DNA of 52,683 nt, taken from IMG/VR virus record IMGVR_UViG_3300042731_003254, positions 1-52,683 of that record; one strand, given 5' to 3'. This DNA comes from a virus. This document shows positions 7,839 to 50,276 of this stretch, one piece after another (the stretch's first letter is position 1; each line of letters opens with the position of its first letter). The notes beneath the pieces were generated by a model. That model saw only the letters and a list, made by a program, of their open reading frames with translations, made no database searches and was not told the origin of the DNA. The position numbers were made by a program, and so were the translations under genes.

Positions 7839-7851
7839 TATATTACCTCAT

Positions 7852-30935: not shown

Positions 30936-31919
30936 TTATGCTCTATATAACATTTTACAAGCTGATGCTTCACGAAGAACATCAGTTCCAAATCTCATGG
31001 TAATAGCAATTCCCATAAGATCATGAATTGGATCTTCATAGTCTTCTATTGTGATATCTCGTCTCATGACGATTGTAGCGAAATCAGCTTTAGAGAAGAT
31101 CAATGCTTGGATATCAGTTCCTGCATTTGTGTTATCCCATGTTGGTGTTGCCTGTTCAGTAACCGTACAAGTATATGGTGTTAATCCCATTATCTTTGGT
31201 ACTTGTCCAGTATTTAGTGGACTTGAAGAACCTGCATACGCAACATAAGCTAGGTTAGAGTCTTCTAATAGTGATCCTTCTGCATGTGGATGAGTCATCA
31301 TAATATCAGGCATATAATTCTGTCCTTTTATCTTTGCTATAGCTTGTGCAATGTGTCTTACTGCGAATTTGGTTGATGCACCAGGATCCACACTATTTGT
31401 AGAAACAGCATTACTTCCTGCAATCATCTGATAAAGAACACGCCTATTAAGTGCATTTTCCATCCTTGCTCCAGATTTCTTAAGCTCTAATTCGATTATA
31501 TCGAATAATGAATCTTCTATTAGTTCATTGGTTATAACTGGTCTTGTACCCCATTTGTCTATAGTAATATCTTGTTTGGTATATGTTTGTGTGTCGATAG
31601 GTACTTTTGAGCCTTCTGCTACTTTACCAGCATATGTTCCATTTTCTCCCTTGACAAATCTTACACTATAAGTATTTGTAGCTACAACTGGTGTGACTTC
31701 TCTTAAACATCTGAAAGGTTCTGTACCTTCTATAACTGTTCTATAAACTTCTTCTTGTACTAAAGTTGATGCGTTTATAGCATATGCCTCAGTCTGCATA
31801 AGAGTCTTGTATGTCTCTTCGCCTAAGGTGTTCTGGAATGAATCTAATGATCTCATTCGCTCTTGTTTTGTTGGACTTGAAAATCCATACTCCAAAAGTT
31901 TAGTTAACTTACTTGCCAT
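30936..31919 (-). CDS. Major capsid protein (HK97 fold)
   Basis: 327 residues. The regions expected of an HK97-type capsid subunit are visible in order. First an N-terminal helix (about 1-45). Then an E-loop-like segment (VRFVKGENGTYAGKVAEGSK, about 87-106) and the spine strand and helix (TNELIEDSLFDIIELELKKS). The P-domain comes next, and an A-domain stretch near the C-terminus (MRRDITIEDYEDPIHDLMGI, then FGTDVLREASACKML). It is preceded by decoration and protease-scaffold genes and followed by a strong terminator. The N-terminus has no long delta domain; scaffolding is provided by the separate acidic protein upstream. Confidence 0.9.
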   Translation of the reverse strand: MASKLTKLLEYGFSSPTKQERMRSLDSFQNTLGEETYKTLMQTEAYAINASTLVQEEVYRTVIEGTEPFRCLREVTPVVATNTYSVRFVKGENGTYAGKVAEGSKVPIDTQTYTKQDITIDKWGTRPVITNELIEDSLFDIIELELKKSGARMENALNRRVLYQMIAGSNAVSTNSVDPGASTKFAVRHIAQAIAKIKGQNYMPDIMMTHPHAEGSLLEDSNLAYVAYAGSSSPLNTGQVPKIMGLTPYTCTVTEQATPTWDNTNAGTDIQALIFSKADFATIVMRRDITIEDYEDPIHDLMGIAITMRFGTDVLREASACKMLYRA

Positions 31920-34874: not shown

Positions 34875-35360
34875 TCACTTTATAATTGCATCCTTACATG
34901 CTGGATGAGTTACTATTGCTGTACCTATGAAAGATATATTCTCTGCATAGATTTTCTCATCATCTTCATCCCATCTATCTTCAGTTCTCAACTCTACTGA
35001 TACCCAATTTACTAAACCAGCATCTACTAAAGCTACTGCAGTTCTTGCAGCTTCTGTTATGGGATAAATGTGTAAATCTCCCTTTACCATATCATCATGG
35101 AATCTAGGATTCATTACATAGCCTATTCTGTCTTTTACACTCCATGAGTGATCTACATTTAAATAGTTTTCTTCCCAATTAGTTGATGCTTTATTTAATT
35201 CATGAGCTGAGTATACAATTGGCATCATAGATGTAGAATCTGTCCATTCTCCAGGAGATATCAAATGTGCATCATTATAGATTCTCACTGTAGAATCCTT
35301 CTTAATTAATTTAGTATTGTAATCTAATTTAGTTAAGACTCTATGAATAGTTTTATTCAT
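34875..35360 (-). CDS. First maturation-protease-like protein
   Basis: 161 residues. Pattern: MMPIVYSAHEL, NYLNVDHSWSVKDRIGYVM with candidate His71, GDLHIYPITEAARTAVALVD, LVNWVSVELRTED with candidate Ser121, then AENISFIGTAIVTHPACKDA. The final motif is characteristic of phage prohead proteases of the DUF2213/S78-like group. It overlaps the portal gene by eight bases, the expected place for this enzyme. A second protease-type domain lies 1.2 kb downstream (32402-33655), which is unusual. Confidence 0.75.
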   Translation of the reverse strand: MNKTIHRVLTKLDYNTKLIKKDSTVRIYNDAHLISPGEWTDSTSMMPIVYSAHELNKASTNWEENYLNVDHSWSVKDRIGYVMNPRFHDDMVKGDLHIYPITEAARTAVALVDAGLVNWVSVELRTEDRWDEDDEKIYAENISFIGTAIVTHPACKDAIIK

Positions 35361-36756
35361 TACTTTCCCTCAATTGATTTATTTCATCACGTAGTTCGTC
35401 AATTAAATCATATAGTTCCTTCACATCTCTTTTAGTTTTCTTTTCTTTCTTTTGCTGTTCACCCTCTGGAGGTTTTTCCTCTCCAGTTGGCTTTTCTGTT
35501 TCTCCTGTTGGTTGTGCAGAACCTAATTCATCACCACCTTCTATTGGTGGATAATCAAATACAGCTCTTATTTCATTTATTGTAAATGGTTTTCTTTCAT
35601 CATCTCTGAATACTTTCAAGAGATTACCTAGCCATTTTGCTTTTATAGCCTCATCAGCATCAGTTACACTATTGAATCGGAATTTAACTTTTGGAGGTTC
35701 CTTTGAAGTTTTTCCTTCATAACCTAACAGTGGATATATAAGTTCTCTTAGAACTTGTTCAGAAATCTTATGTTGGAATGCTTTAATCATTCTCTCATAC
35801 ATAATCTCTTTTACTTTAGATGTAGCCTCCGTAGAGCCTCTTCCTAAACCTAGAGCTTCTTCTGGACATAGTAATCCTATGACAAGTTGGGTTTGGAAGT
35901 AGTTATAATACTCTTCTACACCAGATATCCCCTTTTGATCTATTTCAGTAATTGTAACTGGACCAGGTACAATAAATTCATTAGTAGCTGTTATGTCTTC
36001 TAACTTGGATTTTATAGCAGTGAAAACACTTTCATCTGGAATAAAATCTTTATCACCAACTGTAACTACAAATTTACCTGTACCATGTCTAATGATAGCA
36101 TTTGCTACTGCATCATCAGTTGCTGCTTTTCTATCAATAGTAGCTCTTGTGGGAGCTATAAGTGAAATACCATATGGTGAAGCTGGATTATTAAATAATC
36201 TAATATGAATAATATCTTCTGGTTTAAGTGGAGCTTGTAATTGTCCACGAATTCTCTGTTGATATGATTCAACTCTACCAAATTCATCAGTATTTATCTC
36301 CATTGTTATTGGATCAACTATTTTTAAGGAAGTTATTTCCTTTCCTTTTCTTACTTTTTCTATGAATGCATCTCCAAATATTAAGGCATATGTTATACTA
36401 TCTAACATTACCCCATCAAAGTCAACTTGATTTAAGAAGTTTGAAATTTCTTCTTTCTTACCCTCTTCTTCAGTGACTATAGTGTATCCTGTCATTACAG
36501 TATTCCAAGCAGTAGTGTTTACAGATGCAAAAATTGTACCATCATTTATGTAGTAACTCCAGTAGGCTCTCATTAACTGTTGAGATCTACCTCCTCCACC
36601 ACCAAATGCTGCACCACCACCACCACCTGTCGCTATGACAGTTTTTGGTTTTCCTTCCTTATCCACAAATAATCTAGTGAATTGATCCTGTGGAGTAGGT
36701 CTAAAGAATACATCCCTAAGTCTATCTCTTAGAGTTTTTACATTTTTATCGGCCAA
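35353..36756 (-). CDS. Portal protein
   Basis: 467 residues. Portal hallmarks: an N-terminal clip with RAYWSYYINDGTIFASVNTT, VDFDGVMLDSITYALIFGDAF, ITSLKIVDPITMEINTDEFG, then the stretch KPEDIIHIRLFNNPASPYG that is typical of the family core, LIAPTRATIDRKAATDDAVA and AIIRHGTGKFVVTVGDK. The C-terminus is a Pro/Glu/Lys-rich tail with a coiled coil. It forms the dodecameric ring through which DNA enters. It lies next to the Alba gene and terminase. Confidence 0.92.
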   Translation of the reverse strand: MADKNVKTLRDRLRDVFFRPTPQDQFTRLFVDKEGKPKTVIATGGGGGAAFGGGGGRSQQLMRAYWSYYINDGTIFASVNTTAWNTVMTGYTIVTEEEGKKEEISNFLNQVDFDGVMLDSITYALIFGDAFIEKVRKGKEITSLKIVDPITMEINTDEFGRVESYQQRIRGQLQAPLKPEDIIHIRLFNNPASPYGISLIAPTRATIDRKAATDDAVANAIIRHGTGKFVVTVGDKDFIPDESVFTAIKSKLEDITATNEFIVPGPVTITEIDQKGISGVEEYYNYFQTQLVIGLLCPEEALGLGRGSTEATSKVKEIMYERMIKAFQHKISEQVLRELIYPLLGYEGKTSKEPPKVKFRFNSVTDADEAIKAKWLGNLLKVFRDDERKPFTINEIRAVFDYPPIEGGDELGSAQPTGETEKPTGEEKPPEGEQQKKEKKTKRDVKELYDLIDELRDEINQLRESNE

Positions 36757-37065: not shown

Positions 37066-38532
37066 TTAAACTTTTATGACATCCCATCTCCTACGTGTTG
37101 TAGGTTTTAATACAGTACTTTTTTTACCCGTAGATATTAAGTTGGGTATAATGGACCAATCTATATTTGATTGCCCATCATTAAAGTGTGCAGCTTCTAG
37201 TGCAAACGACAGTGAATCTATAGCATCATCATGTGCTCCCCTAGGAAACATTGATAGCTCATCTCCATACACAGTAAACTCAGGATTCATAAAAATCCTA
37301 TTAGTTTCAAACAATACAGAGAGTCTTTGTACTCTAGACATTCTATCATTAGTGATACTTGGCTTTACTGGTATTACTGGTAATCCTGGATTCTGTTCCA
37401 TTAAATGTTCAACTATTGATTTTTGTTGTGCTGCAGAATCTATTCCTATTCTTAATGGTCTCCACTTTCTATCCATTTTTAATACTTCTGTGAATTGTTG
37501 TGCCATTGTTAAATCTCCTCGAAATGCATCCACTAGGAATACATCTCCTTCCTTTATAGCAATGACACTTAAAGCAAAGTAATCAGTCTCTTCGCCTTTT
37601 GATGCCAAATCAACTCCCATATAAATCTCATATGGTTTTGGTGGCATTATATAATTATCTTGTGATCTTCTAATTTGATCCCATTTTATTAAAGCATCTT
37701 CTGCTGAAACTACTTCATTTTGATATTGCATATAGAATCCAACAGTACCTGCTTGGGATTTTATTTCCATTAATTTATCATATGTCCATCTATTGGGCCA
37801 TAGTACTTGTGGACCCATATTTTGTTTCTTTTGTTCTTCATCAGGCTCAAAAATTATAGCTCTATATATTTTTGATTTATAGTTAGTTCGATTTTGAAAG
37901 TACGAGTGAATATCTAATTCATGCCACTTCGTACCTATTGATATGATTTTACAATCAGGTTCGAGCATTGGTAATAAAGTCATATTATACCATCGTACTA
38001 GCTCTTGCCTTCTATACTCAGTTCTTGAGTTTTTACCATCAGTTATATCATCTAAGATGATTAAGTCATAGTGACCCCCTACCATAGATGATGTGACACC
38101 TAGAACCTGCAAGGTTGGTTCTTTATGTGGGACACCTGGATGTCCTCTCCTTAATACTCTAATTGATGATTTTGACCATTCATTGGGGTTTCTTAGTTCT
38201 CCCCAGATATCTTTGATTATTTCATTAGTATCTAGAGCATTTTGAACAAAGCTCATCATTTCATTTGCTTTGTCTTGATTTATAGTAACTTGTAATATCC
38301 TAATATTAGGATTTTGTAATATTCTCCAAATAACATAGGCACCTATTATGGTAGATTTACCATGTCCTCTTGGAGCTAATATGGATACATAATTGTTATT
38401 TTCAATTAAGTCTATCCATTCTTTGTGGAACCATTCCACGTCTAATCCTAGAACTTCCTTCATAAAGATTTCTGGACTAGCTGAATATGTTAACATTTTT
38501 TTATAGTTTTTCATTTCTTCTTCAAGACTCAT
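37066..38532 (-). CDS. terL: Terminase large subunit
   Basis: 488 residues. The ATPase domain has Walker A, APRGHGKST (53-61), an SSMVGGHYDLIILDDI stretch with Walker B (about 155-162) and a C-motif-like ISIGT near 200. The nuclease domain has GVDLASKGEETDYFAL with Asp308, IGIDSAA with Asp365 and FPRGAHDDAIDSLSFALE with Asp435/Asp436. All metal ligands are intact. The protein translocates and cuts viral DNA. It is followed by Alba and portal genes. Confidence 0.95.
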   Translation of the reverse strand: MSLEEEMKNYKKMLTYSASPEIFMKEVLGLDVEWFHKEWIDLIENNNYVSILAPRGHGKSTIIGAYVIWRILQNPNIRILQVTINQDKANEMMSFVQNALDTNEIIKDIWGELRNPNEWSKSSIRVLRRGHPGVPHKEPTLQVLGVTSSMVGGHYDLIILDDITDGKNSRTEYRRQELVRWYNMTLLPMLEPDCKIISIGTKWHELDIHSYFQNRTNYKSKIYRAIIFEPDEEQKKQNMGPQVLWPNRWTYDKLMEIKSQAGTVGFYMQYQNEVVSAEDALIKWDQIRRSQDNYIMPPKPYEIYMGVDLASKGEETDYFALSVIAIKEGDVFLVDAFRGDLTMAQQFTEVLKMDRKWRPLRIGIDSAAQQKSIVEHLMEQNPGLPVIPVKPSITNDRMSRVQRLSVLFETNRIFMNPEFTVYGDELSMFPRGAHDDAIDSLSFALEAAHFNDGQSNIDWSIIPNLISTGKKSTVLKPTTRRRWDVIKV

Positions 38533-39875: not shown

Positions 39876-39912
39876 CCGAAAGCTTTATATACTATGAGTT
39901 GTAAAAATCGAA
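39876..39912 (+). promoter_or_regulatory. Archaeal promoter P1 with structured transcript downstream
   Basis: BRE-like CCGAAAG followed by CTTTATATACTATGA. The transcript would start near 39912 and run into a segment with TAAGGG/CCCTTA and AGTTACTC/GAGTAACT stems (39935-40010) but no gene before promoter P2. It could make a small RNA or a long leader for the operon at 40240. Confidence 0.65.
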
Positions 39913-40167: not shown

Positions 40168-40223
40168 CTTTATATACTATGAACACCCTACAACTATTTG
40201 AGCAGTTAGTAAATAACTAACTG
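40168..40223 (+). promoter_or_regulatory. Promoter P2 and leader hairpin of the first rightward operon
   Basis: CTTTATATACTATGAACAC (40168-40186) is an archaeal core promoter. About 35 bases later CAGTTAG (40203-40209) pairs with CTAACTG (40217-40223), and AGGA follows three bases after that. The start codon is at 40240. The hairpin directly before the ribosome site recurs in other operons here. Confidence 0.7.
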
Positions 40224-41889: not shown

Positions 41890-42396
41890 ATGAAAATGGG
41901 GGAGATTATAATAGGAGGCATTATCCTCCTCTTAATTTTATCTAATACAGTAACAGCAGGAAAATATGATTATATCCAAAGAGTAGACAAACCTACAATA
42001 ATAACAAATAAAATATTTCGAGATACACCTATAGGATTGGCTATATGGAGCAGTAATACGATAGTAATAAACTGTTTATTCATAAATTGCACAGATGAAG
42101 GAATAATAATTTGTAATTCAGTAAACAATCTAATAATGTTTAATTACTTCATAGATTGTGTAGATGGAATAGAATTACAAATATCTGGATATAATAAGAT
42201 TTTATTCAATAAATTCTGGGATATAGAACATATGGGAATTGATGCAATACACCAATCAAATAACTACAATCTAATAGCATTTAATGAATTTAGAAATGCA
42301 CCATATGGGATATACTTTAAAGAGTCCTACAACAACACAATAATAGCAAATAGATTCGAAAATATTTGGACAGAAGAAATATTCTTCTATCCATAA
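41890..42396 (+). CDS. Secreted NosD-like beta-helix protein
   Basis: 168 residues. The N-terminus has a signal peptide (MKMGEIIIGGIILLLILSNT; cleavage near TVTAG). The mature part has beta-helix rungs: IVINCLFINCTDEGIIICNS, NLIMFNYFIDCVDGIELQIS, YNKILFNKFWDIEHMGIDAI, NLIAFNEFRNAPYGIYFKES and NTIIANRFENIW. These are the 'N-x-I-x-x-N-x-F' repeats of NosD/periplasmic copper-binding-like proteins, common in archaea. It is secreted outside the cell or onto the surface, which is unusual among the small cytoplasmic genes around it. Confidence 0.8.
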   Translation: MKMGEIIIGGIILLLILSNTVTAGKYDYIQRVDKPTIITNKIFRDTPIGLAIWSSNTIVINCLFINCTDEGIIICNSVNNLIMFNYFIDCVDGIELQISGYNKILFNKFWDIEHMGIDAIHQSNNYNLIAFNEFRNAPYGIYFKESYNNTIIANRFENIWTEEIFFYP

Positions 42397-42535: not shown

Positions 42536-42551
42536 GGTAGGTTATCCTACC
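42536..42551. repeat. Spacer palindrome copy 1 (GGTAGG-TTAT-CCTACC)
   Basis: First of eleven copies of an inverted repeat restricted to spacers of the rightward region. It lies 59 bases ahead of the TATA box of promoter P3. Confidence 0.85.
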
Positions 42552-42575
42552 ATTGATTCTTATTGGTTTAACAGG

Positions 42576-42593
42576 AATTAACAATTGTGAATT
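42576..42593. promoter_or_regulatory. Second copy of the AATTAACAATTG palindrome
   Basis: AATTAACAATTGTGAATT differs from the copy at 40027 in one base. It ends 16 bases before the TATA box of promoter P3, a usual position for an operator. Confidence 0.5.
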
Positions 42594-42602
42594 TAGTGAA
42601 AA

Positions 42603-42658
42603 TCGAAACATTTAAATACTATTAACACATTATCCCTCTCGATAATTAAGTTTCGAGA
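42603..42658 (+). promoter_or_regulatory. Promoter P3 and leader hairpin
   Basis: TCGAAAC then ATTTAAATACTATTAACAC (TATA at 42610-42618). In the leader TCTCGA (42637-42642) pairs with TCGAGA (42653-42658) around a 10-base loop. AGGAGG follows 5 bases later, then the start at 42677. Confidence 0.68.
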
Positions 42659-42676
42659 TTATCAGGAGGTTGAAAT

Positions 42677-43318
42677 ATGGAAATAAAAGTCGAAATCAAA
42701 AAGATAGAAAACAAACAGTTGAAAGAAATCGAAATTGAAGGCAAAGTATACAAAATAACAAATGGTACAGATTATGTTGATATTGCAGATTATAACCAAG
42801 TAAAACAAGAGAATGAGTCATTAAAGAGAACGACAACACGAGATATAAATGAAAATCTAATGGAAGAAAATAAACATTTAAAAGAGGAAAATTCTATCCT
42901 AAAAGCAGAGAGTAGAGAACTAAAAGACGAAAACAACACATTACAAAAGGGTATTTTAGCATTAAGAGAGATTGGTTTTAAACCAGAAGATTATATCGAG
43001 AAGGAAACTAAAGTAGAAAAATCTAAAAAGCAAACCCCACAACAAAAATACCAAAAAAGATGGAGAGATAAAGGAAAGAAATCTAAATACTTTGATACTA
43101 CCTATATGACATATATTCGAAAGGATGAAATTGAATATGTTAAAAAGGCAATACTACATACAGAGGTTGACTATATACCTTCTATGGAGGGGATAATGAG
43201 GCAGACAGGGTTAAGTTTACAGAGAGTAAGAAGTACACTACACTGGCTTAAGAAGAGAGGAGAGATAAAACCAGTAACAACAGAGAACAGAGGAACTAAA
43301 TATATAATGGTGGATTAA
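42677..43318 (+). CDS. Coiled-coil, winged-helix DNA-binding protein
   Basis: 213 residues. The N-terminal 40 residues are a small beta domain (EIKVEIKKIENKQLKEIEIE). Residues 45-100 are a coiled coil (ENESLKRTTTRDINENLMEE, KHLKEENSILKAESRELKDE). After a Lys/Gln-rich linker the C-terminus (about 140-213) is a winged helix: EYVKKAILHTEVDYIPSMEG, IMRQTGLSLQRVRSTLHWLK and KRGEIKPVTTENRGTKYIMV. A dimer with two DNA-reading heads is likely. It is the best candidate in this window for the protein that reads one of the spacer palindromes. Transcription from P3, with a palindrome upstream, allows autoregulation. Confidence 0.8.
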   Translation: MEIKVEIKKIENKQLKEIEIEGKVYKITNGTDYVDIADYNQVKQENESLKRTTTRDINENLMEENKHLKEENSILKAESRELKDENNTLQKGILALREIGFKPEDYIEKETKVEKSKKQTPQQKYQKRWRDKGKKSKYFDTTYMTYIRKDEIEYVKKAILHTEVDYIPSMEGIMRQTGLSLQRVRSTLHWLKKRGEIKPVTTENRGTKYIMVD

Positions 43319-43330
43319 TTCCACCTCTCT

Positions 43331-43348
43331 CTTATTTTTTTTTTTTTT
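43331..43348 (+). terminator. Oligo-T terminator after the winged-helix gene
   Basis: Fourteen consecutive T, 16 bases after the stop codon. Confidence 0.7.
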
Positions 43349-43391
43349 AAAACAAAACATTTTTAAATGGATAATTTATTCTTATTTTTGT

Positions 43392-43620
43392 GGAGAGATA
43401 CTTCACAGGATAGGGAACTAAAATAAAGGCGTGAATTACTCACAAATACACATCCCATCTTACCTTTATTCCCTATCCTTCATACGCTATGAGAAGAGAG
43501 GATTAAAGCCTTATTTTGCGAAAATAACCTCCCGACTCTTCGAAGAGGTTTTTACCTTACTAGTTTCAAGCTCCCCTCTTTGGAGAGGGTTATAGTCGCT
43601 TTATAGCCTCTCTTCTCTCC
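43392..43620 (+). ncRNA. Candidate structured RNA S1
   Basis: Two domains. Domain 1: AGGATAGGGAA (43407-43417) pairs with TTCCCTATCCT (43469-43479), 11 bp. After a 6-base bulge TAAAGG (43424-43429) pairs with CCTTTA (43463-43468), leaving a 33-base loop. Domain 2: GAGAAGAGAGG (43491-43501) pairs perfectly with CCTCTCTTCTC (43607-43617). TAAAG/CTTTA extends this helix and encloses three hairpins: TTATTTT-GCG-AAAATAA (43511-43527), a CTCTTCGAAGAG hairpin (43536-43547) and CCCTCT-TTGG-AGAGGG (43574-43589). A TATA-like box at 43360-43368 would start RNA near 43392. There is no open frame. Function unknown. Confidence 0.6.
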
Positions 43621-43668
43621 TTTCCTCTTTACTTCTTAGATTGATTTATACTATCTGATACTATCTTA

Positions 43669-43756
43669 GGTAGGTTATTCCTACCTATTGTCATCTTTTG
43701 TCAGACAAATGATGTCGTTTGTATGATATTGTCTCATATAGGTAGGTATACCTACC
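43669..43756. repeat. Spacer palindrome copies 2 and 3
   Basis: GGTAGG-TTATT-CCTACC (43669-43685) and GGTAGG-TATA-CCTACC (43741-43756), 72 bases apart start to start. Between structured RNA S1 and promoter P5. Confidence 0.85.
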
Positions 43757-43884
43757 ATTCTATTATTATTTTTTTCAAGATATAATAATGTTTTTATATT
43801 TTGATTAATATATTATCCCTATATTAATCTATAACGAGTTAAAAGGATACAATAAAATTATGATTATATTTTTTAAATGGAACA

Positions 43885-43933
43885 TCGGAGGGTTTATATA
43901 CTTTGAATGCATTACGAATGTTGCAGAAATGCA
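43885..43933 (+). promoter_or_regulatory. Promoter P5 and GAAA-loop leader hairpin
   Basis: TCGGAGG then GTTTATATACTTTGAATGC (TATA at 43892-43900). TGCA-GAAA-TGCA (43922-43933) forms a small hairpin with a GNRA-type loop at the expected 5' end of the RNA. It runs straight into AGGAGG. The promoter lies within a longer upstream reading frame, which sets the true start at 43941. Confidence 0.65.
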
Positions 43934-43940
43934 GGAGGAT

Positions 43941-44192
43941 ATGAGAAATATGTCCAAGAATGAATGTAATAAAACAAGAACAAAAGAAAATCCATACGAA
44001 ATATGGAAAAATAATGCTGGTTGGACTTGGTATGTCTTAAGGAAATACCAAAATAAAGAGAATGAAGAAAAAAATCCTTATGCAAGATGGTTTTGTCTTG
44101 TAAAATCTCCCTTTGTCCCTGATGGAGAATTAGGAGATGTATATTGTAAGGATATAAAAAATAGTGCAGAATTGGTGGAGAAAAATTATTAA
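43941..44192 (+). CDS. Conserved archaeal-virus-type small protein (NPYARWFC motif)
   Basis: 83 residues from the ATG at 43941. An in-frame ATG at 43860 is rejected because the promoter TATA box (43892-43900) would lie inside it. The alternative start is 43950, since AGGAGG is only 2 bases from 43941. Motifs: NPYEIWKNNAGWTWYVLRKY, then NPYARWFCLVKSPFVPDGE and LGDVYCKDI. I recall a family of short proteins with an N-P-Y-A-R-W-F core in haloarchaea and their viruses. A function is not known to me. Confidence 0.72.
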   Translation: MRNMSKNECNKTRTKENPYEIWKNNAGWTWYVLRKYQNKENEEKNPYARWFCLVKSPFVPDGELGDVYCKDIKNSAELVEKNY

Positions 44193-44227
44193 ACCAATTC
44201 TCTATTCTTTAATATAGGAGGTATAAA

Positions 44228-44419
44228 ATGAAAAGAAAATGTCCAAATTGTAATAAAGAATACGAAACAGAATTAGAGCGTCCCCCATTAGATACGAGGA
44301 GCATACAAGAAATATTCCCTAATTCTAAACCATACCAGAGGGAACAGTTAATAACAGGTATATGCTCTGATAAATGTTGGAATGAATATTTGGGTATAAC
44401 AGAGGAGGATGAGCCTTAA
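44228..44419 (+). CDS. Small zinc-binding protein (63 aa)
   Basis: 63 residues. CPNCNKEYETE at the N-terminus and CSDKCWNEYLG near the end give four cysteines for one zinc. The middle is PPLDTRSIQEIFPNSKPYQ. AGGAGG lies before the ATG. Treble-clef-like; family not recognised. Confidence 0.72.
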   Translation: MKRKCPNCNKEYETELERPPLDTRSIQEIFPNSKPYQREQLITGICSDKCWNEYLGITEEDEP

Positions 44420-44525
44420 ATGAGACTCATCTTTCCTATCTGGATATGGTTATTTATATATACTAAATTTATATATTTTATAGTATATATTCATAACAAC
44501 TGTAGCATATCTATTGGTTAAATAA

Positions 44526-44542
44526 ACCGAAAGGTTTATAAA
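44526..44542 (+). promoter_or_regulatory. Promoter P6
   Basis: ACCGAAAG followed by GTTTATAAA, a clear BRE/TATA pair. No reading frame begins downstream for over 400 bases. RNA would start near 44565, at the front of segment S2. Confidence 0.68.
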
Positions 44543-44564
44543 CCCATAAAATATACCCTTAATT

Positions 44565-44706
44565 ATCCCTAGCACAATTTGAAGAAATCGAGGGTAAATC
44601 CTCCCCTTTTTCTTCGATGAGGTGGTGAGGGGGTGCATCCTTGCATAGGAGAGGGTTGTTTTTATCTTTCCTTCCCTCCTGATTCCTCCTCTCCTATGTA
44701 TTTTTT
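44565..44706 (+). ncRNA. Candidate structured RNA S2
   Basis: GAAGAAA (44581-44587) pairs with TTTCTTC (44609-44615), with an inner GAGG/CCTC stem. A G-rich linker follows. Then CATAGGAGAGG (44644-44654) pairs perfectly with CCTCTCCTATG (44688-44698), leaving a 33-base pyrimidine-rich loop. Six T at 44701-44706 could end the RNA. Promoter P6 lies just upstream, so this has the full layout of a small RNA gene. Confidence 0.55.
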
Positions 44707-44720
44707 ATATCGTGGATCTA

Positions 44721-44814
44721 GGTAGGTATATCCTACCTGACTCTCTTTCTATTTACAGGTAGGTATTTCCTACCAGAGATGTTGATTCGCATACTACAGG
44801 TAGGTTTACCTACC
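44721..44814. repeat. Spacer palindrome copies 4, 5 and 6
   Basis: GGTAGG-TATAT-CCTACC (44721-44737), GGTAGG-TATTT-CCTACC (44758-44774) and GGTAGG-TTTA-CCTACC (44799-44814). Start-to-start spacing is 37 and 41 bases, the densest cluster. Confidence 0.85.
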
Positions 44815-44922
44815 ATATCTATTTTCTATAAAAATAAAATTATAAAATAATTAATATAAAATCTGGTAAATAAAATTCCAAATTTCTTTAAAAGGTTTGA
44901 GTAAAAATTTGAGTAAAAATTG

Positions 44923-44978
44923 CCGAAAAGTATATAAACCATGAACACCCTAATAAAGAGTGTTGCTTGAAGGCAACA
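44923..44978 (+). promoter_or_regulatory. Promoter P7 and leader hairpin
   Basis: CCGAAAAGTATATAAACC, then ATGAACACCCTA. TGTTGC (44961-44966) pairs with GCAACA (44973-44978). AGGAG begins at the last base of the stem and the start is at 44992. Masking or presenting of the ribosome site by the hairpin is possible. Confidence 0.7.
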
Positions 44979-44991
44979 GGAGAACGAAGAT

Positions 44992-45555
44992 ATGACAGAA
45001 CAAGTGAATTATAAGTTATTAGGTAAGGCAGTAGTGAATAACAGCGAATTTAAGGCACTCATAACAGATACAATTAAAGGGTGTCTATCGGAGGTAACTC
45101 CACCTCAACAGGAGAATAAAAAGGAGAATAAGGCAGATGAACAACCAAAAGAGGAAAGAGTTGTAACCCATGCATATCAGGAGAAAAGTAGGATATTAAA
45201 TACCTTAACAACAAAGCAAAAGAAATCGTATATATCAAAAGATAAATTACTGGAAGATGGTTTCCCTATGGATTATCAGACAGCACTTAAATTCTTTAAG
45301 GATAATGAAATAGGAGGGCGACCTTGGATTTCATATCAGGAACAAATAGATGTATTTATACTTCCGTTGATGGATAGTTATAAATTCACGAAAGCACAAA
45401 AGAAATCAAAACTTTCATCACTACAAGAGTTTCTTCAAGAGCGAATAACCAAGACAGAAGAAAACAGCAAATTAAAAGATTATCAGAAAAAACCACGAAT
45501 ACAGTCATTAGAACTATGCTGGAAGTCAGTAAGTGAGGCACTCGGAGAGATTTAA
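44992..45555 (+). CDS. Hypothetical early protein (187 aa)
   Basis: 187 residues. N-terminal acidic-basic linker (TPPQQENKKENKADEQPKEE). The central part has possible helix-turn-helix character (KKSYISKDKLLEDGFPMDYQ, TALKFFKDNEIGGRPWISYQ). The C-terminal part has basic helices (KFTKAQKKSKLSSLQEFLQE). May bind DNA; no family recognised. First gene of an operon whose next members are two cysteine-rich micro-proteins. Confidence 0.7.
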   Translation: MTEQVNYKLLGKAVVNNSEFKALITDTIKGCLSEVTPPQQENKKENKADEQPKEERVVTHAYQEKSRILNTLTTKQKKSYISKDKLLEDGFPMDYQTALKFFKDNEIGGRPWISYQEQIDVFILPLMDSYKFTKAQKKSKLSSLQEFLQERITKTEENSKLKDYQKKPRIQSLELCWKSVSEALGEI

Positions 45556-45586
45556 ACTCTCCCTCTCTTTTCTTTAAGGTATTTAT

Positions 45587-45685
45587 ATGTGTGAAGGAAA
45601 TTGTAACAAATGTCAGCACAGATTATATTGTGAATTAAATGCTGATGATTGTATGTCATTTACAGAGGTGTGTGATGTCAGATAA
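45587..45685 (+). CDS. Cysteine-rich micro-protein (32 aa)
   Basis: MCEGNCNKCQHRLYCELNAD, then DCMSFTEVCDVR. Six of 32 residues are cysteine in CxxxCxxC spacing, suggesting a zinc or iron-sulfur site. AAGG lies ahead of the ATG. It overlaps the next micro-gene by 11 bases. Confidence 0.6.
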   Translation: MCEGNCNKCQHRLYCELNADDCMSFTEVCDVR

Positions 45686-45773
45686 ATGTAGTTTTGAGCC
45701 ACTATGTAAGAAAACCAAAAAACCATGCAAACTTAAATTGTGTGGGATAGATTTTAAAAAGGGTAAGAAATAA
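45675..45773 (+). CDS. Cysteine-rich micro-protein (32 aa)
   Basis: MSDKCSFEPLCKKTKKPCKL, then KLCGIDFKKGKK. Four cysteines, basic. Starts inside the preceding gene behind GAGGTGTG. The two adjacent Cys-rich products may have arisen by duplication, or may work together. Confidence 0.6.
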   Translation: MSDKCSFEPLCKKTKKPCKLKLCGIDFKKGKK

Positions 45774-45785
45774 ACTCCTTACCCC

Positions 45786-45796
45786 TCTCTTTTTTT
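45786..45796 (+). terminator. Oligo-T terminator
   Basis: CTCT followed by seven T, 13 bases after the stop of the second cysteine-rich gene. Confidence 0.55.
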
Positions 45797-45944
45797 CAAT
45801 TTAAAGGCACTTTAGAGCCACGTAGAGCCATTATCTTTTTGTATAGGTATTTATACCCCCTGGCAGATATATTCGCAGGGAGAAGGGTGTTTCTGATAGG
45901 TTTTTTGTTTCTCTCCTTATATCTCGGAGATATGTCTATAGTTA

Positions 45945-46192
45945 GGTAGGTTTTCCTACCTTTCCTATATGCCGCGAGAGTTGGGTTGTTTTTGGTATAT
46001 ATATAGACTATTTAGGTAGGTATTCCTACCTATTTGGCTTTGTTTTGGGTTAATTTAAGGTTAAATTGTGCTTGTAGGTAGGTATTCCTACCATTATTTA
46101 TTTGTATTTATAGAATTAATTAGCCATAGCAATAATGCTCTTTTGAAATTATGCTTGAAAGATTTAAGTCTATAGGTAGGCAATATCCTACC
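45945..46192. repeat. Spacer palindrome copies 7, 8, 9 and 10
   Basis: GGTAGG-TTTT-CCTACC (45945-45960), GGTAGG-TATT-CCTACC (46015-46030 and 46077-46092) and GGTAGG-CAATAT-CCTACC (46175-46192). The arms are invariant while the loops vary, which argues for conservation of pairing or of a two-fold protein site. Confidence 0.88.
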
Positions 46193-46452
46193 ATTTATGT
46201 CTATATATAGGATTTAAGTTAGTAGAAATTTATGTTAATTTTGAGGGAATAGTTAGTAAATATATATATAATTAAGTATTATTACAATATATAATTAACA
46301 GATTTCTCTATTGTTTACCTATGTATTTAAGACCTCTCTCCTTACACCCCCCTTAAATTATAACTAAACATTTAAGATTACCCCCTATGTATTTACCTTA
46401 ATTCTTGTAACGAATTAACATTATTCTTTAATATTAATACCATAAATAGAGT

Positions 46453-46469
46453 GGCGAAAGGTTTATATA
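46453..46469 (+). promoter_or_regulatory. Promoter P8 of the long rightward operon
   Basis: GGCGAAAG followed by GTTTATATAGTTTGAACAC. The first ATG (46502) is about 33 bases downstream of the TATA box, so the leader is very short. This is the only one of the gene-bearing promoters with no leader hairpin. Confidence 0.7.
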
Positions 46470-46501
46470 GTTTGAACACACTACAAGATAGAGGCGATTG
46501 A

Positions 46502-46603
46502 ATGACGAAATCGAATAGGAATATAATACATATAAAGGCAGATGTTTCCCAAAAGGAATACGAAAAAGAATTTAAATCAACCCATTTAGGTTGGGTATCT
46601 TAA
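46502..46603 (+). CDS. Micro-protein (33 aa)
   Basis: MTKSNRNIIHIKADVSQKEY, then EKEFKSTHLGWVS. It is the first gene of the operon from P8, with weak GAGG upstream. A beta-strand/helix pattern with basic start; family not recognised. Confidence 0.5.
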   Translation: MTKSNRNIIHIKADVSQKEYEKEFKSTHLGWVS

Positions 46604-46616
46604 GGAGGTATTTAAG

Positions 46617-46706
46617 ATGGTTGGTTATATAACAAAAGAGCATTTAATTACCATATATTTAGCACAAACTTTAACTTGTGGTAATAAAATAGATAAGGAG
46701 AAATAA
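46617..46706 (+). CDS. Micro-protein (29 aa)
   Basis: MVGYITKEHLITIYLAQTLT, then CGNKIDKEK. AAGGAGG lies upstream. The start resembles another micro-gene at 50773 (MTVYITKEQI), so the two may be related. Confidence 0.5.
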   Translation: MVGYITKEHLITIYLAQTLTCGNKIDKEK

Positions 46707-46708
46707 AT

Positions 46709-46936
46709 ATGTATTTAAGAAAGAAAGATAGAAAGATATTTAAGGAAATGATAGATGAACATATCAATTCCATAAATAAAATAAAGGCAAATAAAGAACA
46801 AACATTAGTGGAAATAAGAGAGGGAAAACCTCATTTAAATAAAGTGAGAGATAATATACTAATGAGGCAAGTAATTAAACTTTGTGATGATGAATTAAAA
46901 CAACTATATGAATTAAAGGAGAGATACTGTGAATGA
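46709..46936 (+). CDS. Helical protein (75 aa)
   Basis: 75 residues, charged coiled coil: KKDRKIFKEMIDEHINSINK, then KVRDNILMRQVIKLCDDELK. The gene starts 2 bases after the previous stop and overlaps the next start. Likely a small oligomeric regulator or inhibitor; family unknown. Confidence 0.65.
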   Translation: MYLRKKDRKIFKEMIDEHINSINKIKANKEQTLVEIREGKPHLNKVRDNILMRQVIKLCDDELKQLYELKERYCE

Positions 46937-47363
46937 AGAATTTAAGAAAAAGAAAATAAAGAAATGTAAGACAATAAATAAGGCAAGTTGTAATAAAAGG
47001 AAACCATTTACTGATAGGGATATAATGGAAAACATAGCAATAACAGTAAATGAAGAAGAAAGGCAATACAGAAGAATAAATGAATATAAAGGAAGAATTT
47101 ACTTTGATAGAAAAAGGAAACAATTTATTCAGATAAGGGAAACCTTAACAAATTCTGAAATTGTTGATGGATTTGTTTGTGGAGGATTTACTGATTATTA
47201 CGAAGATGCAAAACACAACATTTGTTTCCAAAGATTAACCACTAAATACATAATAGAGAATTTAATTGCAGTTAATTTAGCAAATAGTAGACAATTTATA
47301 CATGATGGAATTGGTTGGAGGGTAATAAATAGAGAAATAAGACATAAATTAAATGTTGAATAA
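46929..47363 (+). CDS. Hypothetical protein (144 aa), GTG start
   Basis: 144 residues from a GTG behind AAGGAGAG, overlapping the previous gene. A basic start (KKKKIKKCKTINKASCNKRK) is followed by a globular domain: GRIYFDRKRKQFIQIRETLT, SEIVDGFVCGGFTDYYEDAK and LIAVNLANSRQFIHDGIGWR. Not recognised. The basic arm suggests contact with nucleic acid. Confidence 0.65.
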   Translation: MNEEFKKKKIKKCKTINKASCNKRKPFTDRDIMENIAITVNEEERQYRRINEYKGRIYFDRKRKQFIQIRETLTNSEIVDGFVCGGFTDYYEDAKHNICFQRLTTKYIIENLIAVNLANSRQFIHDGIGWRVINREIRHKLNVE

Positions 47364-47391
47364 AGAAGGGAAAATTGGATAAGTGGTTTAA

Positions 47392-47694
47392 ATGTGGAAA
47401 GTAATAAGGCAATTTAAAAATGATATGGGATATATTGTCTATGTTGGTAATAACAAACTAATGAAAAAATGTAGATATGAATTAATGAAAAAGATGGGTA
47501 GAAAAGCCCTATTTAATATGTATGTTCATCATATAAATAGAATAAGAACAGATGATACATTTAAGAATTTAGTTATTTGCACTTATGATGAACATAATCA
47601 TCTACATTATTTATTAGAGAGAAATAAAACAAACCTATACAATTTAGAGGTAAATAAATTGAGAAAGAAATATAAAATGGAGAAATTAAAATGA
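47392..47694 (+). CDS. HNH-like endonuclease (reduced)
   Basis: 100 residues. The core VHHINRIRTDD (His46/His47), FKNLVICTYDEHNHLHYLL (Asn59, His68) reads as an HNH motif with the usual 'H-H-I-N/D' and 'N-L-x-x-x-T/C' elements. The zinc cysteines of the other HNH gene are missing, so it belongs to the zinc-free type or is degenerate. It lies among small unknown genes, which suits a homing enzyme or a host-DNA nuclease. Confidence 0.65.
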   Translation: MWKVIRQFKNDMGYIVYVGNNKLMKKCRYELMKKMGRKALFNMYVHHINRIRTDDTFKNLVICTYDEHNHLHYLLERNKTNLYNLEVNKLRKKYKMEKLK

Positions 47695-47819
47695 ATGAGC
47701 AAACATATTTAAGTAAAGAAATTGATAGGCAACTAAAGGAAATTATTACAGTATTAGGGAGAATGACAGAAGATAAATACAAAATAAAAATAGAAATAAC
47801 TATGGAGAGAAAGAAATGA
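47691..47819 (+). CDS. Small helical protein (42 aa)
   Basis: MNEQTYLSKEIDRQLKEIIT, then VLGRMTEDKYKIKIEITMER. The ATG overlaps the previous stop (ATGA) and its own stop overlaps the next start. Family not recognised. Confidence 0.55.
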   Translation: MNEQTYLSKEIDRQLKEIITVLGRMTEDKYKIKIEITMERKK

Positions 47820-47941
47820 TTTCTAATAACATTAAAAATCTAAATAAAGAGATAGAAAAGTTTATATACAAGAAGAAACAAATAGATGGAGAGAAAATTG
47901 AACGAACAAAGAAATATTTAATTAAGATAGGAGAAATATAA
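47816..47941 (+). CDS. Small basic helical protein (41 aa)
   Basis: MISNNIKNLNKEIEKFIYKK, then a Lys-rich helix. ATGA overlap with the previous gene; the next ATG follows the stop directly. Probably translated by coupling; function unknown. Confidence 0.55.
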   Translation: MISNNIKNLNKEIEKFIYKKKQIDGEKIERTKKYLIKIGEI

Positions 47942-48130
47942 ATGAATGGAATAAGTATAAATGAGCAAGAGGCAAATGCTAATGTAAGACACACTCAATT
48001 AAGAGAGTTATTAGAGCAATTTCCAGAAAGTATAAATCCAATTACTTTAATTGGAACAATAGGAATTGCTTTTAATATGGAGGTAAATTATACACAAGAC
48101 AAAAAAATTATAATAATAAAGGAGAAATAA
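47942..48130 (+). CDS. Small protein (62 aa)
   Basis: 62 residues: SINEQEANANVRHTQLRELL, then QFPESINPITLIGTIGIAFN. Mixed alpha/beta. The start is directly after the previous stop with AGGAG in front. Family not recognised. Confidence 0.6.
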   Translation: MNGISINEQEANANVRHTQLRELLEQFPESINPITLIGTIGIAFNMEVNYTQDKKIIIIKEK

Positions 48131-48132
48131 AT

Positions 48133-48333
48133 ATGGAAAGAGAATTTATAAGTAGTAAATTAATAAGAAAGGCAGATGGAACATTAGATTATGACAGAAT
48201 ATTATTAGAGGGAATGTCAGAACATAATAAAGAGGTAATAAAAAGGAATAAAGGAGATGGTATCTTATCAACCAAGAAATTAATTGAATACCATAACAAC
48301 TTAAATGAATTAAGGAGATTAAGAGGTAATTAA
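48133..48333 (+). CDS. Small protein (66 aa)
   Basis: 66 residues, charged helices: KLIRKADGTLDYDRILLEGM, then KLIEYHNNLNELRRLRGN. The next gene begins immediately after its stop. Family not recognised. Confidence 0.6.
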   Translation: MEREFISSKLIRKADGTLDYDRILLEGMSEHNKEVIKRNKGDGILSTKKLIEYHNNLNELRRLRGN

Positions 48334-48567
48334 ATGAGAAGATTAACCAATAAAGAGAAAGATATGTATTTAAATGCAGTTACTGAACAACTCTTATTTA
48401 AGAGAGAAGATGATGATGGAAAGAAACAACCAATTAAAGATTGGAAAGAATTAACTTATGGAGAAAGACATACTCTCTATATCAATTTAATTACAAGGAG
48501 AGTAAGTGAAAATATAACAGATGGACAGATACACCAATTTAAGAAATATATATTTGGAGGTAATTAA
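48334..48567 (+). CDS. Small protein (77 aa)
   Basis: 77 residues, helical: LTNKEKDMYLNAVTEQLLFK, KDWKELTYGERHTLYINLIT, RRVSENITDGQIHQFKKYIF. Stop-to-start junctions on both sides. Family not recognised. Confidence 0.65.
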   Translation: MRRLTNKEKDMYLNAVTEQLLFKREDDDGKKQPIKDWKELTYGERHTLYINLITRRVSENITDGQIHQFKKYIFGGN

Positions 48568-49557
48568 ATGGAAATAGATGAAAGAAAATGGAGAGAATAT
48601 GAATTAAATACAAGAGAGGAATTAAGAGAAAATCCTTCTCTTAAAAATCAAATAAGAGGTAAGAATTTATTTGGTTTAATTGAAGATAGAAATGAGGCAC
48701 AGAAGATAAATACCTATGATTTTACTGATAAATGGGGAAGAAAAGGTAATTCTTTAGATGGTTGTGTAAAGGTAAACTCAAATATAATAAAGTTACCAAG
48801 TAATAACTTTGGTAGTTTAGCAAGTTATTACATAGATACATTACCAATAGGAATAAAGTTTATGAAAGGGCAAGAGATTACCTTTATTTCTCAAAGAGAT
48901 AGAATTTGTAAAGGGAGAGCAATCTTAAATAGGAGAGCATTAAGTAGAATGGTTGCTACATGGGGATATTTAAATGGTATTAGATATTATAAAGGTAAAT
49001 CAAATACACCAAGACACGATACAGCAATAGGATTATGTTGTGTAAGACAGAAAATAAATGGTAAGGAATATGATTTAATATCTGGAATTGAGGCAACTCA
49101 CATAATAAAGGATATTAAGAGGCACATAAGAGAGGGTAATCCTAAATGCTTTTATGAATATAGATTAGAGGTAAATCAATCAAGTGAGGCAGATGAAATT
49201 GTAGTATTAACTATAAATAGAACACCAGAATTTAAGGAGAAATACCAAGATAAAAAGGGAAATTGGAGATGGAAATTAGTTAATTCAAAGGTAATAAATG
49301 CAAGTGAAAAGGTAAAGTATAATAAATATTGGAGATTTCCAAGATATTCAGTAGAATATTTAAATGGATTATTAGAGGAATTGCATAATGGAGATTACTT
49401 TGTAAATTTATATGTTCCAGTAATTTACAACCTCTATAAATATCCAATTAAATGCACTGGTATAAGAGAGGTAAGTTATGCTAAATACAAAGATGTAATA
49501 AAGGCAAGAAATGAATACGAACAAGCAGTTATTGATAATTTACAATATGGAGATTAA
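48568..49557 (+). CDS. Large unknown early protein (329 aa)
   Basis: 329 residues, the largest protein of the rightward region. Segments: TDKWGRKGNSLDGCVKVNSN, IGIKFMKGQEITFISQRDRI, KSNTPRHDTAIGLCCVRQKI, GNWRWKLVNSKVINASEKVK, RFPRYSVEYLNGLLEELHNG. Alternating strands and basic loops suggest an enzyme or nucleic-acid-binding protein. I find no known catalytic motif. It is the last gene of the P8 operon, followed by a T-run and a palindrome. Confidence 0.75.
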   Translation: MEIDERKWREYELNTREELRENPSLKNQIRGKNLFGLIEDRNEAQKINTYDFTDKWGRKGNSLDGCVKVNSNIIKLPSNNFGSLASYYIDTLPIGIKFMKGQEITFISQRDRICKGRAILNRRALSRMVATWGYLNGIRYYKGKSNTPRHDTAIGLCCVRQKINGKEYDLISGIEATHIIKDIKRHIREGNPKCFYEYRLEVNQSSEADEIVVLTINRTPEFKEKYQDKKGNWRWKLVNSKVINASEKVKYNKYWRFPRYSVEYLNGLLEELHNGDYFVNLYVPVIYNLYKYPIKCTGIREVSYAKYKDVIKARNEYEQAVIDNLQYGD

Positions 49558-49560
49558 ATC

Positions 49561-49581
49561 TCCTCTCTCTTTTTTATTTTT
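49561..49581 (+). terminator. Oligo-T terminator after the 329-aa gene
   Basis: TCTCTC then six T, A and four T, starting 4 bases after the stop codon. Confidence 0.6.
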
Positions 49582-49595
49582 ATATTATTATTATA

Positions 49596-49613
49596 GGTAG
49601 GTTTATACCTACC
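49596..49613. repeat. Spacer palindrome copy 11
   Basis: GGTAGG-TTTATA-CCTACC. This is the last copy seen. It lies behind a T-run terminator and 183 bases ahead of promoter P9. Confidence 0.85.
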
Positions 49614-49788: not shown

Positions 49789-49849
49789 TCGGAAGGTTTA
49801 TATACTTTGACTTTTCATCTCTCCGAGAAATTGCCGAAAACTTTATATA
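49789..49849 (+). promoter_or_regulatory. Tandem promoters P9 and P10
   Basis: TCGGAAGGTTTATATACTTTG (TATA 49796-49804) and GCCGAAAACTTTATATAGG (TATA 49841-49849), 45 bases apart, same orientation. No gene starts for over 400 bases, so they may drive a non-coding RNA or a long leader. Confidence 0.6.
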
Positions 49850-50104: not shown

Positions 50105-50276
50105 GGTTGTTTTACACCTTTAGGTTATTGGTTTCCTATCAATCGGCAAACAACCAGAATAATAACAAGTATTACAGAATAACAAGTGTATCAGTAATAC
50201 AGATAGGGAATTAACTTATTTACTTTCTTTACTTTTTACCTCACTACTTGAGGGTGTAATTAAGTTATCCCTATCT
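50105..50276 (+). ncRNA. Candidate structured RNA S3
   Basis: Three stems. GGTTGTTT (50105-50112) pairs with AAACAACC (50148-50155). GTATTAC (50169-50175) pairs with GTAATAC (50194-50200). Directly next to it AGATAGGGA (50201-50209) pairs with TCCCTATCT (50268-50276), extended after a 2-base bulge by TAACTTA/TAAGTTA to 16 bp. The last helix has the same GATAGGGA-type arm as domain 1 of S1, with a bulge on the same side. Confidence 0.5.

Follow-up and report, generated by a model that had tools for sequence, protein, structure and literature searches.

Dispersed GGTAGG palindromes as likely upstream regulatory sites of early genes in a tailed virus with archaeal-type promoters

Introduction

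What purpose do eleven copies of one short palindrome serve when they lie scattered between the early genes of a tailed virus? The question is raised by IMG/VR virus record IMGVR_UViG_3300042731_003254, a tailed virus with archaeal-type promoters. The 52,683 nt of this record are called here the window, meaning the whole stretch of DNA analysed, labelled G000 among the compared viruses. Structural genes occupy its leftward half and many small early genes its rightward half, from ~40 kb, where the palindrome GGTAGG-N4..6-CCTACC recurs. It had been proposed, from the letters of the window, that this element is either a dispersed operator or an RNA hairpin. To our knowledge, how tailed viruses of uncultured archaea time the expression of their genes has hardly been studied. 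Since relatives carry a word of this kind, shifted in sequence, beside the gene of a shared orphan protein, the palindromes most likely serve as binding sites for a gene switch specific to the virus.

Eleven palindromes in five early spacers

On rescanning, the palindrome matched exactly at the eleven places first described, with constant 6-base arms and loops of 4–6 nt, against no copies expected from 100 dinucleotide shuffles. The loop measures 4 nt in six copies, 5 nt in three and 6 nt in two. All eleven lie in non-coding DNA and are spread over five early spacers, as had been claimed. The spacer enrichment anticipated by the original prediction has p ~ 7e-10 under random placement in the window (15% non-coding) and p ~ 1.6e-4 inside the early half only (45% non-coding). 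The leftward half and the 39.7–40.2 kb spacer hold no copy, in agreement with the earlier reading. Degenerate copies (up to 2 mismatches, loops of 2–9 nt) are absent from the window, where such scans gave shifted readings of the same eleven. Every GGTAGG in the early half forms the left arm of one of the palindromes, and a single spare CCTACC stands near 50.74 kb. The arms are invariant across the window, and no compensatory change was encountered within the genome. The palindrome region has no Rfam match. Scans of viral contigs with the palindrome pattern only were uninformative: among the matches listed there were scattered singles and no further cluster. Readings as a transposon or miniature inverted-repeat transposable element, an integron attC site or clustered regularly interspaced short palindromic repeats were dropped, the flanks being unconserved and no associated genes being seen.

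Promoters were scanned with a position weight matrix (PWM) made from strong matches to the B recognition element (BRE) and TATA box in the studied viruses. It gives about ten promoters on the + strand of the window's early region and none on the - strand, so that a + strand promoter stands downstream of 11/11 palindromes and a - strand promoter downstream of none. Each of the five spacers shows the same order, namely a T-tract after the upstream gene, then one or more palindromes, then a strong BRE/TATA promoter, which bears out the original description of sites behind a terminator and ahead of a promoter. Palindrome 1 (42536..42551, loop TTAT) lies 59 bp before the TATA box at 42611..42618 (+, PWM 21.1). 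Palindromes 2 (43669..43685, loop TTATT) and 3 (43741..43756, loop TATA) precede the TATA box at 43893..43900 (+, PWM 15.4), the latter by 136 bp. Palindromes 4 (44721..44737, loop TATAT), 5 (44758..44774, loop TATTT) and 6 (44799..44814, loop TTTA) lie ahead of the TATA box that serves the candidate reader gene discussed below (44931..44938, +, PWM 18.7), from which palindrome 6 is 116 bp away. Palindromes 7 (45945..45960, loop TTTT), 8 (46015..46030, loop TATT), 9 (46077..46092, loop TATT) and 10 (46175..46192, loop CAATAT) are upstream of the TATA box of an operon ending in a 329-aa gene (46462..46469, +, PWM 24.4), with 269 bp between palindrome 10 and the box. Palindrome 11 (49596..49613, loop TTTATA) stands 183 bp before the TATA box at 49797..49804 (+, PWM 20.4). 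The first early promoter (TATA box 39884..39891, +, PWM 28.5) and the second (40169..40176, +, PWM 21.7) have no upstream palindrome.

Virus-specific words in related viruses

A terminase search yielded 16 related records at 51–65% identity and dozens more distant ones; the full records were fetched, and their spacers were searched blind for over-represented, virus-specific words. The nearest large relative, G002/L133 (TerL 62%), carries six exact and two imperfect palindromes in the same kind of spacers, and the GGTAGG palindrome was found in no relative other than this one. Many relatives have a virus-specific over-represented word of their own in early-region spacers. The scan of relatives proposed at the outset thus returned six exact copies in G002 and spacer-restricted, promoter-upstream words in others.

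A GTNGG core is common to the words of nine viruses, the window included. The word is GGTAGG in G000 and G002, GGTGGG in G005/G006, GTGGGAC in G008, L180, L182 and L184, GTGGGGCG in L181/L245 and GTTGGACC in G010; none of this kind occurs in the terminase relatives G001, G004, G007 and G015. The same half-site is found single, in direct repeat and inverted in G008, G010, L245 and L184. At some sites of G005 the innermost complementary base is lost and the loss is uncompensated (GGTGGA or GGTGGT ... CCCACC). A second dispersed word, CRTGCTAGAC/CATGCTAAC, is present in L184, L180, L139/G008, L245 and L144/G013. It often follows GTGGGAC after 2–4 nt, giving a composite element of ~30 bp that may have a second reader.

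In the distant relatives L188, L189, L206 and L209, other words stand 13–16 bp upstream of TATA boxes and are oriented with the promoter. The private spacer words of these four viruses, in the early regions of the first 10 kb, are AAGAGGAA, AAGCGGAA, GCGTAAG and GGCGGACCC; they often form arrays together with GAATATTAAT. That more distant kin repeat the pattern with other words suggests that private early regulons may be widespread among these viruses.

Distance between sites and TATA boxes

At 4/4 promoters of G010, exactly 15 bp separate the end of the palindrome from the TATA box. In G000, G002 and G005 the nearest site falls 57–61 bp (five promoters) or 83–86 bp (three promoters) before it. 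Placement at a near-constant distance immediately before BRE, as at Ptr2/Lrp-type activator sites, was observed in G010, L188, L189, L206 and L209, and not in the window. The first early promoter, which is also the strongest, lacks a site in G000, G002 and G010; in G005 it has a lone half-site 175 bp upstream. Taken together, the TATA spacing, the spared first promoter and the oriented words of distant kin indicate that the words are upstream regulatory sites of non-immediate early promoters.

A candidate reader that tracks the sites

The candidate reader is a mostly helical orphan protein of 187 aa, encoded at 44992..45555 (+) with palindrome clusters on both flanks. A hidden Markov model (HMM) of the proteins of nine relatives, built without the window, matches it at E=1.5e-7, the top match after the training set among ~13,000 open reading frames (ORFs). 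The nine-member model was needed, pairwise profile comparison of the G002 and G005 proteins with the window protein not being significant. Scans for close homologues returned nothing with the window protein and only itself with the G002 homologue.

Members of this family in relatives stand in the same setting as the window gene, and the family gene's own promoter bears sites in 4/4 viruses (G000, G002, G005 and G010). Among the non-universal clusters obtained by single-linkage clustering of all ORFs of at least 55 aa from 20 viruses, the 187-aa family alone is shared by all nine GTNGG-word viruses; it occurs in only 2/11 others (G013 and L248). Fisher's exact test on the counts 9/2/0/8, which left out G011 (a truncated record with a GTGGGAC), gives p=0.0007, uncorrected for shared ancestry. 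No family member was found in L188, L189, L206 or L209. The relatives' proteins have a net charge of +9 to +16. An AlphaFold2 (AF2) model of the window protein has a confident helical core at residues 61–187 (predicted local distance difference test score of at least 94). Binding of the palindromes by the 187-aa protein, judged from co-occurrence, is slightly favoured.

Known families offered no match. Searches of Pfam, PHROGs and PDB sequences returned nothing for the 187-aa family, and a Foldseek search with the model matched no solved or viral structure significantly. Kinship with Rep, the repressor of L5 and Bxb1, did not emerge: the window protein has no significant repressor match in Pfam or PHROGs and the family none in Pfam. 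An Lrp-family identity likewise found neither a Pfam nor a fold match. A ribbon-helix-helix (RHH) fold had no match either, the AF2 core being all-helical.

The original prediction had named another local reader, a 213-aa protein at 42677..43318 (+). Its description as a coiled-coil winged-helix protein held, since a single-sequence AF2 model shows a coiled coil and a winged helix, with winged-helix structure matches. Its role as reader is less favoured, since homologues were not found in site-bearing relatives. A close-homologue scan with this protein returned nothing. An N-terminal motif, EIVxIxGxxYLIxxGxAYxI, is common to some members of the 187-aa family (N-termini of L133:3876-4376, L136:4630-5112 and L181:4747-5268) and resembles the start of the 213-aa protein (window 42677-42780); by profile comparison this resemblance is not significant. 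A further conserved early protein, of 329 aa (48568..49557, +), is encoded by the last gene of the palindrome-flanked operon and is a minor rival as reader. Its homologues occur in G002, G005, G008, G013, L180, L181, L198 and L200.

Weighing of alternative explanations

If the palindromes were transcribed, a GGUAGG stem with a U-rich loop might serve termination, 3'-end processing or protein binding. Every tested copy would fold (-8.8 to -11.8 kcal/mol), the sense-strand loops are T-rich and all five spacers lie behind genes. However, the T bias of the window loops is not above that of their flanks (p=0.16), so T-rich loops are no pointer to a sense-strand RNA. The T-tracts moreover stand upstream of the palindromes, which places the hairpin neither within nor directly before a termination site. 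Reading at the level of DNA rather than RNA is indicated by the relatives: their half-sites occur singly, directly repeated and inverted, the inner pair is lost in G005 without compensation, and the G010 palindrome keeps its fixed distance to the TATA box of four promoters. An RNA hairpin was rejected as the leading explanation on the non-significant strand bias of the loops and on arms that are invariant without compensation, and it now seems quite improbable; function at the DNA level is well supported. Thus, the operator half of the original proposal was strengthened by the spacer-restricted, promoter-upstream words of relatives, and its hairpin or terminator half gave way before the half-sites, G005 and G010. 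A DNA element could also belong to replication, partition or packaging, the early region then holding an iteron or centromere cluster. The GC skew turns near 40 kb and the sites cluster in one 7-kb region. Yet there is one site group per promoter-bearing spacer, relatives tie the sites to TATA boxes and no replication initiator was identified beside them, which makes this role very unlikely, the least probable of those considered.

With DNA sites upstream of promoters, the main rival is a repressor that reads them as dispersed operators or stoperators and keeps the later early operons off, in latency, in superinfection immunity or as roadblocks behind leaky terminators. The stoperators of Cluster A mycobacteriophages are typified by dispersed, virus-specific sites and a regulator that co-varies with them (PMC6550527), several sites lie 10–40 nt behind a T-tract, and SvtR represses from ~80 nt upstream of TATA (PMC5569661). 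A lysogeny repressor would, however, be expected at the strongest first early promoter, which is without a full site in four viruses. Furthermore, no window site overlaps a TATA box or start region, the G010 site sits at an activator position upstream of BRE, and no integrase was seen in the incomplete record. Repression is the less probable course, though a serious one. It is slightly less probable still that the reader of these sites is a host factor, the 213-aa protein or the 329-aa protein. For the 213-aa protein, modelling gives a plausible coiled-coil dimer with a winged helix, and a palindrome lies 59 bp upstream of its own promoter. The 329-aa family is basic (net +15) and present in 6/9 word viruses; it is missing from the other three, two of which are short records, and is also found in L198 and L200. 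With a host factor as reader, it is hard to see why the word should differ from virus to virus. The 187-aa protein is preferred as reader because it tracks the sites.

Proposed mechanism

The best explanation, which we hold to be slightly better than an even bet, is an autoregulated early regulon with upstream DNA sites read by the 187-aa protein, probably an activator. The palindromes would be double-stranded DNA sites by which a tailed virus of archaea defines an early regulon. The site-free first early promoters (39884 and 40169) would fire with host TBP, TFB and RNA polymerase alone, and the later early operons, the regulator gene included, carry 1–4 copies upstream of BRE/TATA. The 187-aa protein may bind inverted GGTAGG half-sites through its helical core, as a spacing-tolerant dimer or a pair of monomers, and a flexible N-terminal part could let two core domains reach half-sites 4–7 bp apart. 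Most likely it would recruit the initiation machinery and control its own gene. Activation, such as archaeal activators exert from just upstream of BRE (PMC2995911), is marginally preferred to repression. The comparison establishes the sites, their confinement to spacers, their link with promoters in kin, the half-site series and the joint occurrence with the protein family; binding by the 187-aa protein, activation and timing we infer.

Several observations weigh against this explanation. Loop lengths of 4–7 would be unusual for a rigid dimer, and the gap from the nearest site to the TATA box varies in the window (59, 136, 116, 269 and 183 bp). The orientation of promoters relative to sites is mixed in L184. 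The co-occurrence test ignores shared ancestry, several records are truncated, the word set and the family set were found in the same data, and G013 and L248 carry the family but have other words. The window member is divergent (13–25% identity) with a net charge of +4, and the predicted fold of the family has no match resembling a helix-turn-helix. A bolder proposal, which we advance tentatively and with some doubt, is that of a new class of archaeal-virus transcription factor, in which a small, helical protein whose fold resembles no solved DNA-binding domain would read spacing-tolerant inverted GTNGG half-sites, with a word that drifts between viruses and defines private early regulons.

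Virus record and neighbouring features

The leftward half of the window encodes a terminase (37066-38532), a portal protein (35353-36756) and an HK97-type capsid protein (30936-31919). The left 7.8 kb, once taken for a stretch without ordinary ORFs, was resolved as a tape-measure-like open frame of 2615 aa (3-7847, -). This frame runs off the record end, so the record is incomplete. In genome scans the sole TerL relative was a 4-kb contig in a metagenome-assembled genome of the Thermoplasmata, the only cellular link. The scans of Thermoplasmata genomes gave no convincing member of the 187-aa family; one genome has a weak 50-residue match. With this single contig as link, the host of the virus is unproved.

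Other features of the early region deserve mention. A NosD/right-handed beta-helix protein (41890-42396, Pfam 1e-13) is encoded among regulatory genes and is preceded by a hydrophobic N-terminus. An HNH endonuclease-like small protein (47392-47694, PHROG 6e-8) lies inside the operon downstream of palindromes 7–10. At 44535-44710 a strong promoter with no ORF behind it is followed by a T-tract and then by palindromes 4–6, an arrangement possibly corresponding to a small non-coding RNA. Long inverted repeats with GATAGGGAA...TTCCCTATC stems lie in spacers at 43410-43480 and 50190-50265 and are candidate structured RNAs; L133 has a similar structure after its 329-aa gene.

Significance and comparison with known systems

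This virus group offers a natural series: across its members a cis-site (GGTAGG, GGTGGG, GTGGGAC, GTGGGGCG and GTTGGACC), linked to recognisable BRE/TATA promoters, varies alongside a candidate trans-factor. Should the 187-aa family bind the sites, it would be a new kind of DNA-binding protein. The series would then also be a case for the divergence of regulator specificity between co-occurring viruses, an archaeal counterpart of heteroimmune stoperator systems.

The closest likeness is with Cluster A mycobacteriophages (L5, Bxb1 and Trixie), whose genomes each hold tens of short intergenic virus-specific words, and in which the stoperator word drifts between relatives along with the phage-encoded DNA-binding protein (PMC6550527). 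The window shares with them dispersed intergenic virus-specific words that change between relatives. Their stoperators are, however, bacterial, asymmetric 13-bp sites of a known elongation-halting repressor, whereas the window sites have symmetric arms around a loop of 4–6 nt, lie upstream of archaeal BRE/TATA, spare the first early promoter and go with an unrelated orphan candidate protein. Ptr2, LysM and Ss-LrpB, which are archaeal activators, act through a site of constrained position immediately before BRE, with autoregulation (PMC2995911). The spacing in G010 (15 bp) and in distant kin (13–16 bp) is similar; the window differs by sites 59–269 bp away, and no Lrp-type protein was identified. 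SvtR, AvtR and F55, from crenarchaeal viruses, are virus-encoded, autoregulating RHH regulators with several sites per genome, up to ~80 nt upstream of TATA (PMC5569661), unlike the 187-aa family, which is modelled as all-helical. In halovirus HF2, an archaeal tailed virus, dispersed intergenic repeats are linked to promoters (PMC8707807); these measure 29–58 bp and have the promoter inside, in contrast to the window word of 16–18 bp, which excludes the TATA box. The GTC element of SIRV1/2 is a virus-specific cis element in most promoters (PMC5569661), but it is located downstream of TATA and is not palindromic, unlike the window palindromes. Dispersed private operators in bacteriophages and promoter-bearing intergenic repeats in HF2 are thus already known; the window system differs from them in the domain of its host, in the architecture of its sites and in its candidate protein.

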